A stretch of 54,744 bases of DNA, from assembly GCA_015490155.1 (NCBI GenBank), contig WFYI01000024.1, forward strand, positions 1 through 54,744, written 5' to 3'. The notes below the pieces were generated by a model. It was not told the DNA's origin, ran no database searches, and saw only the letters and a list, made by a program, of their open reading frames with translations. Shown in pieces: positions 49,540-52,944 of this stretch. A program made the translations under genes and the position numbers. Numbering within the stretch: the stretch's first letter is position 1; every line of letters begins with the position of its first letter. The DNA is from Aquificaceae bacterium. GTDB taxonomy: Bacteria; Aquificota; Aquificia; Aquificales; Aquificaceae.

Positions 49540-50199
49540 ATGGAAGGTGTAAGCTATAACCACGTGATATTCGGGCTCGTTTCCGTAGGCATATCTATAA
49601 TCCTGGTCTTACTTGCCGGAAAACCGAGTATAAAGCCTACGAAGTTTCAGGCTCTACTTGAAGGATACCTCGGATTCGTGAGAGGGATGCTGGTGGACAA
49701 CATGGGAGACAGGGGTTTAAAATACATGCCCCTAATAGCCGCCATGGGTATGTTTATATTTTTCTCCAATCTCTTGGGAATGGTACCGGGGCTTTCTGCA
49801 CCAACGGCAAACATAAACACCAACCTCGCTATGGCACTCATAGTCTTCCTTTACTATAACTACGAAGGCTTAAGGGAAAACGGACTCGGATACTTTAAGC
49901 ACTTTATGGGTCCCGTTCCACTACTTGCACCCTTCTTTTTTGTCGTGGAAATCATATCCCATATAGCCAGACCTATAACTCTGTCCTTGAGGCTGTTTGC
50001 CAATATGAAAGCCGGTGCGATGATTTTAGTCGCCCTCGTAGGGCTTGTTATACAGAATCCTTTCACCCTCGCCGTATCTCCCATAGTGTTGTTATTTATA
50101 ATTGCGATAAAGTTCTTAGCCATATTTATACAAACGTACATATTCATGATTCTTTCGGTAGTTTACCTTGCCGGCGCAATAGCCCACGAGGAGCATTGA
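49540..50199 (+). CDS. atpB: F0F1 ATP synthase subunit a
   Basis: A 219-residue membrane protein with five to six helices. The essential Arg lies in ITLSLRLFANMKAGAMIL (about residues 147-164), and GLVPGL-type LGMVPGLSAPTANINTNLAM is present. It forms the proton half-channels against the c ring. F0 subunits b and delta and the F1 genes are not in the window, so F0/F1 genes are split in this genome. Confidence 0.95.
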   Translation: MEGVSYNHVIFGLVSVGISIILVLLAGKPSIKPTKFQALLEGYLGFVRGMLVDNMGDRGLKYMPLIAAMGMFIFFSNLLGMVPGLSAPTANINTNLAMALIVFLYYNYEGLRENGLGYFKHFMGPVPLLAPFFFVVEIISHIARPITLSLRLFANMKAGAMILVALVGLVIQNPFTLAVSPIVLLFIIAIKFLAIFIQTYIFMILSVVYLAGAIAHEEH

Positions 50200-50200
50200 T

Positions 50201-50605
50201 ATGAAAGCACTACTCATACTGACCGATACCACGGGACAATGTCATAAAGCCCTTGAATATTTAAAGGATTTCTCTGAAAAGTTACACATGGAAGGGGAAG
50301 TGTTTATAATCTTAGAAGACCTGTACAAACTTGAGAAGGCTTCAGTTTCACTGGGATTTCCGCTACCGCCGGAGACCGTTCCACAGACCAAGGACAAGGT
50401 TCTTAAAAAGGTAAAACATATTTGGGAAAGCGTAGGAGGTGAGGACTTGACCATATCCGTAGTTGCAGGGGAGATAAGAGACGAAGTTACAAGGTACGTA
50501 AAAGAAACCGGAGACGTTGGTCTTGTTATGTGGGGATGTAATCCGTCCGTTAACGTCTGCAGTGTAATAGATGATATAGATATACCATCGCTAATAATTA
50601 AGTAA
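50201..50605 (+). CDS. Usp/nucleotide-binding-like small protein between atpB and atpE
   Basis: A 134-residue soluble protein starting 1 nt after the atpB stop. It has an alpha/beta pattern like universal stress proteins: KALLILTDTTGQCHKALEYL at the start, LTISVVAGEIRDEVTRYVKE and DVGLVMWGCNPSVNVCSVID, IDIPSLIIK at the end. The Usp ATP loop (GxxGxx9GS/T) is not evident. Cysteines at GQC, WGC and VCS are notable. Its position inside the F0 gene pair suggests a link to ATP synthase assembly, but this is only contextual. Confidence 0.7.
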   Translation: MKALLILTDTTGQCHKALEYLKDFSEKLHMEGEVFIILEDLYKLEKASVSLGFPLPPETVPQTKDKVLKKVKHIWESVGGEDLTISVVAGEIRDEVTRYVKETGDVGLVMWGCNPSVNVCSVIDDIDIPSLIIK

Positions 50606-50617
50606 GGAGGTCTGCAA

Positions 50618-50956
50618 ATGAGGAAGAAGCTCTTTGCTCTGCTAATGGGTATGCTTCCTACGGCAAGCTTCGCCGCCGAGGCTGCAGGGGGGTCGTCTGA
50701 CAAAGCCCTCTTCCTTGGACTTATAGCTCTCGCATCCGGACTTGCCATAGGACTCGCCGGCGCCGGAGCGGGTATAGGTATGGGTCATGCGGTTAGAGGA
50801 ACTCAGGAGGGTATGGCAAGAAACCCTACCATGAGCGGTAGACTACAGACCATAATGTTTATAGGTCTGGCTTTTATAGAAACAATAGCACTTTACGCAC
50901 TGTTCGTCGTAATAATCTTTGTGTTTACGAACGTATTCACAGGAAAACTGGGGTAA
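50618..50956 (+). CDS. atpE: F0F1 ATP synthase subunit c with signal peptide
   Basis: A 112-residue c subunit. Residues 1-20 are a signal peptide (KKLFALLMGMLPTASFAAE), then helix one with GLAIGLAGAGAGIGMGHAV, the polar loop ARNP, and helix two with the ion-binding Glu (about 88) in FIGLAFIETIALYAL. The Na+-ligand Gln of sodium-type c rings is Met here, so protons are the likely coupling ion. A cleavable N-terminal signal is unusual for subunit c and is described for Aquifex aeolicus. TAAGGAGG precedes the ATG. Confidence 0.95.
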   Translation: MRKKLFALLMGMLPTASFAAEAAGGSSDKALFLGLIALASGLAIGLAGAGAGIGMGHAVRGTQEGMARNPTMSGRLQTIMFIGLAFIETIALYALFVVIIFVFTNVFTGKLG

Positions 50957-51002
50957 TCGCTTGCCCCTTGCCCCGGTTTTTCTTAAGTAAGGAGGCTCCC
51001 CG

Positions 51003-51146
51003 ATGGCTACGGAAGGATTGAAACCTCACATATCTAACAAGAAAAGGAAGCGTAGGAGCGGTTTTCTCGCAAGGATGAGTACTAAATCCGGAAGGAACAT
51101 AATAAAAAAGAGAAGACGCAAGGGAAGGACAAGATTAACTCCTTGA
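51003..51146 (+). CDS. rpmH: Ribosomal protein L34
   Basis: A 47-residue basic protein: [42 protein letters not shown] end, the L34 pattern with a short extra N-terminus (MATEG). The ribosome site is TAAGGAGGC. Its stop codon TGA overlaps the yidD start (TGATG), where most bacteria would have rnpA. Confidence 0.96.
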
Positions 51147-51352
51147 TGAAAGGTGTCGTTTTAGCTTTTTTAAGGTTCTGGAGAACCTTTGTGTCTCCTC
51201 TCTATCCGCCCTCGTGCAGGTATTACCCTACCTGTTCGCATTACGCAGTTATGTCTGTGGAAAAGCACGGGGTATTGCTGGGTCTTACGAAGGCGTTATG
51301 GAGGATACTGCGGTGTAATCCGTGGAGTAAAGGAGGTATAGATTACCCTTGA
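51146..51352 (+). CDS. yidD: Membrane protein insertion efficiency factor YidD
   Basis: A 68-residue protein with the YidD signature FLRFWRTFVSPLYPPSCRYY, PTCSHYAVMSVEKHGVLLG and ILRCNPWSKGGIDYP; the three cysteines are conserved. It is thought to assist YidC. Both of its boundaries are TGATG overlaps, with rpmH before and yidC after, giving a tightly coupled rpmH-yidD-yidC block. Confidence 0.95.
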   Translation: MKGVVLAFLRFWRTFVSPLYPPSCRYYPTCSHYAVMSVEKHGVLLGLTKALWRILRCNPWSKGGIDYP

Positions 51353-52944
51353 TGAACGAAGATAGAGATATAGACGCAAGAAGAGCCTTTATAGTAATGG
51401 TTCTGATTGCCTTTATGATACTTGGCTACGAGTTGTTCAATTACTACTTTATTCCCAAACAGCCCCAAACGTCTTCTCAGGAGGCAAAAACCGAGGTTTC
51501 CAAAGAAGAAAACCAAAAACAGACAAGTAAACTTCCAAATGAAGAGACAAAGCCTGAGAATGCTGATAAACCGAAAGCCTCAAAGCCCGTTTCAGAACCG
51601 GGCTTACTGCTCGGCACCACGAGGCAGAAGCAAAGTTACGGACAGACCTACACCTTAGAAAACGAGAACTTCCTTGTGGAGGTGTCTTCCAAAGGAGGCA
51701 AGATAGTAAGAGTTCTCGATAAGAAGTTCAACAGGGAACTTATAACCGATACGGAAAAAAAGCTAAACATCTACCCACTGGAAATTTTTACGGGAAGTGC
51801 GGAAAGGGATTTCGAGCTTAACTTTGGTGAGTACAAGGTTGAGAAAAATGGCAACTCTCTAAAGCTTGAGAGGGCAGGTGTAGTCAAGCTCATAGAGCTT
51901 AAAGATAGTTACTTGGATGTTGGTGTTAAAGCCGGAAGTGAGGTTTACATACTTGCAGGAACACATCTTCAGGAAGGCGAATTCTACACTCATTCCGGAC
52001 CGGTTGTAAAGTTCAGAGGAGACCTCGTTAGGGTTGATAAAGGGGACATTTTAAACAGAGAATCTGTGAGTGGAGACATAATCTTTGCCGGAGAGGAAAG
52101 TAGGTACTTCTTTAAGGGATTTAAAGGAGATATTTCTGAGGTACTTATATACAAACTTAAGATGGGAGAGGAGGAGAAGACCTTTACCCTTGTCAAAACT
52201 TCAGGGCAGAAGCTCGTATATTACGCAGGTGCTAAGGAATACACAAGGTTAAGGGATATAGGTCTCGTAGACGTTATAGATTTTGGTACCTTGAAGCTGA
52301 TAGTAAAGCCCCTGTTTATTTTTATGTACTGGGTTTACGAGCATACCTCGAGCTGGATACTTTCTATACTAATTTTGACGCTCATTATAAGGATTATTTT
52401 CTTCCCCTTGAGTTATAAAAGCACCGTATCTATGATGAAGATGGGAGAGCTCGCTCCCAAGATGGAGGAGATAAAGAAGAAGTACAAGGACGACCCGGCG
52501 AAGATGCAGGAAGCTATGATGAAACTCTACTCCGAAGCCGGCGTCAATCCCATGAGCGGTTGCTTACCTATACTTATACAAATCCCTATATTCTTTGCAC
52601 TGTATAAGGTTCTGATTGTTACTGTAGACCTGAAGCTTGCATCTATGCTGTGGATTCCAAGCCTTGCGGATAAAGACCCTTTTTACATACTTCCAGTCCT
52701 TATGGGAGGCACCATGGTACTCCAGCAGTTCATAACCCCCAGTCCGGATAAGAGGCAGAACATGATTATGTACATATCTGCGGTTGCTTTTACTTTCCTG
52801 TTTGCTAACTTTCCCTCTGGACTTGTGCTTTACTGGACTTTTAATAACATACTGAACATAGCTCAGAACTACTTGATAAAAGAGGTCTTTATGAAAGACA
52901 GCAAAGCTACTCAGAAGTCTCAGAAGAAGAAAAAGAAGAAGTAA
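51352..52944 (+). CDS. yidC: Membrane protein insertase YidC
   Basis: A 530-residue Gram-negative-type insertase: first membrane helix about 14-32, a large periplasmic domain (about 60-315) after a low-complexity linker, and five conserved C-terminal helices with the cytosolic coiled loop (YKSTVSMMKMGELAPKMEEI) and the substrate-groove Arg region. NPMSGCLPILIQIPIFFALY is typical. The Lys-rich tail (KKKKKK) favours ribosome binding. The last 38 nt overlap rnc tail-to-tail. Confidence 0.96.
   Translation: MNEDRDIDARRAFIVMVLIAFMILGYELFNYYFIPKQPQTSSQEAKTEVSKEENQKQTSKLPNEETKPENADKPKASKPVSEPGLLLGTTRQKQSYGQTYTLENENFLVEVSSKGGKIVRVLDKKFNRELITDTEKKLNIYPLEIFTGSAERDFELNFGEYKVEKNGNSLKLERAGVVKLIELKDSYLDVGVKAGSEVYILAGTHLQEGEFYTHSGPVVKFRGDLVRVDKGDILNRESVSGDIIFAGEESRYFFKGFKGDISEVLIYKLKMGEEEKTFTLVKTSGQKLVYYAGAKEYTRLRDIGLVDVIDFGTLKLIVKPLFIFMYWVYEHTSSWILSILILTLIIRIIFFPLSYKSTVSMMKMGELAPKMEEIKKKYKDDPAKMQEAMMKLYSEAGVNPMSGCLPILIQIPIFFALYKVLIVTVDLKLASMLWIPSLADKDPFYILPVLMGGTMVLQQFITPSPDKRQNMIMYISAVAFTFLFANFPSGLVLYWTFNNILNIAQNYLIKEVFMKDSKATQKSQKKKKKK

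Follow-up and report, generated by a model that had tools for sequence, protein, structure and literature searches.

Some Usps act on membrane transporters, as TeaD does on TeaABC and Rv2623 on Rv1747 (PMC5549992). The structure of TeaD from Halomonas elongata (PDB 3HGM), a Usp tied to a membrane transport system as its proposed regulator, contains bound ATP (PMC3673472). Aq_178 of Aquifex aeolicus (PDB 1Q77) has been published only as a Usp structure without an assigned function; Tkaczuk et al. (2013) list Aq178 as fully degenerate, with a crystal free of ligand or ion, and do not mention an operon link of its gene (PMC3673472). Among ATP synthase genes, AtpI serves as a chaperone in the assembly of the c-ring (Suzuki et al. 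2007, cited in PMC4154653), and a 2014 survey of atp loci describes split loci in Aquificae with hypothetical intervening ORFs marked 'X' (PMC4154653).

In the window, the 54,744-nucleotide stretch of Aquificaceae DNA analysed here, we found an orthologue of Aq_178 encoded between the genes for F0 subunits a and c. The two proteins are 40% identical and have in common their fold, their location between atpB and atpE and a degenerate ATP motif. The 2014 survey may depict this gene, though not by name. Both the protein and its structure were already known, and we found no account in the literature searched of its order-wide lock to the F0 cluster, of its single gain and three losses on the tree or of its coincidence with AtpI. 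The open-access papers searched held no report of the operon link; most subscription papers, including some on the A. aeolicus ATP synthase, lay outside this scope.

A Usp-like gene between the F0 a and c genes

The locus comprises the following features.

49540..50199, + strand: atpB, F0 subunit a, 219 aa (PF00119, E 8e-53)
50189..50203, + strand: Shine-Dalgarno-like GAGGAG in the last atpB codons, atpB stop TGA, 1-nt gap and usp ATG (read from the sequence)
50201..50605, + strand: Usp-like gene, aq_178 orthologue, 134 aa, ATP loop degenerate (1Q77, E 2e-29; predicted model, Z 18.0 to 1Q77; 75 orthologues in the same place)
50618..50956, + strand: atpE, F0 subunit c, 112 aa, N-terminal signal-peptide-like stretch (PF00137, E 3e-16; sequence and orthologues)
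51003..52944, + strand: rpmH, yidD and yidC (membrane insertase), conserved downstream context (atpE-rpmH-yidD-yidC in 17 of 19 order genomes with long flanks)

The initial annotation had described the F0 a and c genes as parted by a 134-residue ORF that lies 1 and 12 nt from them, and every detail was confirmed: the ORF starts with ATG 1 nt past atpB and ends 12 nt before atpE. By itself, the window protein matched no Pfam and no NCBIfam model. It matched PDB 1Q77, 'hypothetical protein AQ_178' of A. aeolicus, over its full length (E 2e-29), and by eye the 1Q77 chain is identical in sequence to the protein encoded between atpB and atpE of genome G001 (locus L021). The Pfam Usp model (PF00582) matched 48 of 57 family members with a best E of 5.8e-12, at a cut-off of E up to 0.1 under which the window protein is among those without a match. 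An AlphaFold2 model built with 57 orthologues reached a pLDDT of 93.4, and Foldseek with VIA-align ranked 1Q77 first (Z 18.0), followed by many Usps (Z about 11-13), TeaD included. A confident model of a Hydrogenothermaceae-type member had the identical order of strands and helices. In these models, the protein has the Usp alpha/beta fold, and its descent from Usp is secure. The earlier wording, a Usp-like, soluble alpha/beta protein, is therefore correct, given the 1Q77 match, the Pfam Usp matches within the family and the Z-scores of the model to Usps.

The statement that this gene is neither AtpI nor AtpZ holds as well. An AtpI identity is ruled out by the lack of a PF03899 match and by a model that is soluble alpha/beta, with no bundle of several TM helices; AtpZ, which the order carries as a gene of its own, is ruled out by the lack of a PF09527 match. 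The generic Usps of these genomes, L204 and L213 among them, belong to the same superfamily and fold class, but they keep the ATP loop, are located elsewhere in the genome and form a separate group. In a tree with few alignment columns, the atp-linked copies formed one clade relative to these generic Usps (support 95).

An ATP-binding Usp, as had been envisaged initially, is not what we found. The ATP motif G-2X-G-9X-G(S/T) is missing in 67 of 67 aligned family members, in agreement with the published assessment of Aq178 (PMC3673472). Members from family f2 carry a clean deletion after beta4, whereas generic Usps of the same genomes retain the loop, for example GHRGVGGFKRMILGTT. Fold and descent thus mark the protein as a Usp, but judged by the known site it is not an ATP binder; it may yet bind a ligand at another site. 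This bears on a rather unlikely reading, the main rival to an assembly role, drawn by analogy with the proposal for TeaD/TeaABC. As an activity modulator, the protein would bind the fully assembled enzyme and, during energy or heat stress, adjust or inhibit its activity in response to a signal other than ATP at the known Usp site. Transporter-acting Usps such as TeaD and Rv2623 lend it precedent, and TeaD is among the structural neighbours of the Usp-like protein, although its partner is a TRAP transporter and its sequence identity to our protein is low (13-16%). With the ligand loop gone, however, no sensing function is evident.

We also considered a conserved beta2-alpha2 stretch, LEDvY...SxGxPxPPD, as an F0-binding surface. 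This candidate was dropped because generic Usps of the same genomes have a similar IPPEE stretch.

Distribution, losses and selection across Aquificota

A profile search of 136 Aquificota genomes, with family membership defined by a match of 58 bits or more, found the Usp-like gene in 76. All remaining matches scored below 36 bits, and those examined were ordinary Usps. In 75 of the 76 copies, the start lies no more than 40 nt from the atpB match and on its strand; the remaining copy, truncated by a contig end, adjoins atpE. The profile search of the 76 carrier genomes revealed no family copy away from the F0 cluster. Scattering of the gene elsewhere in relatives, named at the outset as the outcome that would speak against the proposal, is ruled out by this neighbourhood survey. 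The genomic link to ATP synthase genes is conserved, and a functional link is quite probable. A solved structure without a function thereby gains a strong genomic partner. The gene could instead be kept in the operon for a suitable expression level while serving an unrelated function, such as general scaffolding under stress or partnership with another system, and Usps do have many partners. We regard this as quite unlikely, as in none of the 76 genomes was the gene found apart from atpB, even though the other neighbours of atpB changed repeatedly, with the gene upstream of atpB varying from genome to genome.

Within family f1, some genomes carry the Usp-like gene, as do all f2 genomes with a readable atpB-atpE interval and every f3 genome but one; neither of the two f4 genomes and none of the 17 f5 genomes read has it. 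In relatives without it, atpB is joined directly to atpE, with gaps of 6-32 nt. A narrower profile (A2) returned 14 loci, all titled Sulfurihydrogenibium, Persephonella, Hydrogenothermaceae or Aquificota, and Persephonella and Sulfurihydrogenibium loci with the Usp-like gene were among them. None of these 14 came from outside the phylum, beyond which this profile has low sensitivity.

On the atpB tree, the presence pattern requires four changes, most simply a single gain at the root of the heat-loving order Aquificales and three losses, in a 26-genome clade of f1, in G018 and in G106. Between atpB and atpE, G018 holds a 157-nt remnant (L195 4623-4784) that still reads MRIIPILEDSLQKCKESL...GCQKGVCSLIPKVKVPSLNNK and is a decayed copy of the gene. 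In G106, about 530 nt of unrelated sequence stand in its place (L196 618-1151), and the interval has no reading frame matching the Usp-like gene. Repeated loss fits a dispensable regulator such as the modulator outlined above. One locus, L086 of genome G035, sits on a very long branch of the atpB tree (1.1 changes per site).

Pairwise dN/dS has a median of 0.088 in the Usp-like gene, against 0.041 in atpB, so that the protein is under purifying selection and less constrained than the core subunit. Together with the full-length 1Q77 match and the orthologues in the same place in 75 other genomes, this selection rules out a chance ORF. Among 67 copies, 35 have a gap of just 1 nt between the atpB stop and the start codon, and 66 show a Shine-Dalgarno-like match at least 4 nt long. 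From the 1-nt gaps, these matches and the kept neighbourhood, we infer that atpB, usp and atpE are co-transcribed. A scan for promoters and terminators gave counts only slightly above those of shuffled sequences, too close to be informative. No stress promoter came to light, which, with the embedding of the gene between constitutive subunits, counts against a stress-responsive modulator. That the gene mainly sets the ratio of a to c expression, as a translational spacer whose protein hardly matters, is very improbable. Subunit c is required in many copies and about half of the members have the 1-nt gap to atpB, as a spacer might, but the low dN/dS and the conserved fold indicate selection on the protein, and relatives without the gene simply join atpB to atpE.

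AtpI and a candidate role in F0 assembly

Like the Usp-like gene, AtpI/UncI (PF03899) is an accessory gene of the F0 cluster. The two differ in that AtpI is a four-TM membrane protein of unrelated sequence encoded upstream of atpB, whereas the Usp-like protein is soluble and is encoded between a and c. In the sister family f5, from which the Usp-like gene is absent, 20 genomes gave an atpB match, and 19 of these have a 4-TM AtpI-like gene immediately upstream of it. The 112 genomes of the order that gained the Usp-like gene yielded no convincing AtpI match. AtpZ is widespread; in the order genomes read, it is placed away from atpB and occurs without AtpI. The gain of the Usp-like gene and the absence of AtpI map to the same deep split. 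This coincidence is suggestive only, because it is a single event and because a later clade without the Usp-like gene shows neither gene.

As the best single reading, though with odds somewhat short of even, we tentatively propose that a Usp paralogue was recruited into the F0 cluster and became a dedicated accessory protein for F0 assembly or stability. A single recruitment would have taken place in the ancestor of Aquificales, and the recruited Usp would then have lost its ATP-binding loop and become dedicated to the ATP synthase. Encoded between the genes for subunits a and c, it would act on the cytoplasmic side as a small, soluble, probably dimeric scaffold that helps to assemble or stabilize F0 (a with the c-ring), a job for which the sister order would use AtpI. 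The dimer, the binding to F0 and the assembly role are each inferred. Consistent with an assembly role are the 75 of 76 copies abutting atpB despite its varying upstream gene, their single clade, the four tree changes, the low dN/dS, the lost ATP loop, the AtpI distribution, the 1-nt starts and the proximity of yidC. Of the two roles suggested initially from the place of the gene, assembly factor and stress-dependent modulator, the first is favoured because no AtpI was found in the same order, although that absence and the Usp gain are one shared event. Against assembly, the Usp-like gene evolves faster than atpB, and it is dispensable, having been lost three times, once in the 26-genome clade that also has no AtpI match. 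Active recombinant A. aeolicus F1FO has reportedly been obtained in E. coli, perhaps in the absence of the Usp-like gene, which also counts against an assembly role.

A more specific version, in which a Usp without a nucleotide site took over from AtpI as a soluble chaperone for F0/c-ring assembly in Aquificales, is unlikely. Replacement of AtpI in every lineage is not supported, given the later 26-genome clade with neither a Usp-like gene nor an AtpI match.

The proposed accessory role names a candidate protein for a well-studied hyperthermophilic ATP synthase, and the questions it raises are directly testable with existing recombinant systems. Confirmation would make the protein the first Usp, as far as we know, to be devoted to ATP synthase. 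It would also show how the c-ring is built in a lineage where no AtpI was found, and would reveal a Usp turned scaffold after loss of its ligand site.

Other features of the F0 locus

Downstream of the a and c genes, the order atpE-rpmH-yidD-yidC holds in 17 of 19 order genomes with long flanks (among them G063, whose atpB lies beyond the contig end), and it is kept with or without the Usp-like gene. The two f3 genomes read have rpmH alone of this downstream set, and the single f5 genome read has none of it. YidC inserts F0 c, and in the window F0 c is encoded next to this insertase (50618-52944). Family f1 has no rnpA between rpmH and yidD (about 51147 in the window), and loss of rnpA is known in Aquificaceae; Persephonella-type genomes have an RnpA-like ORF at this position (L185 5563-5930).

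Subunit c of f3 (L087-L092) lacks the N-terminal signal peptide present in f1, f2 and f5. A tie between the Usp-like gene and this signal peptide is ruled out, as f3 has the gene without the signal peptide and f5 the signal peptide without the gene. In G082 (C1:1672961-1673592), atpB is apparently split, with an in-frame TAA and two overlapping matches, from a frameshift or a sequencing error. A second, divergent F0 a gene was seen at L142 and as second atpB matches in G016, G020, G064, G079, G090 and G104; these genes possibly derive from an N-ATPase.
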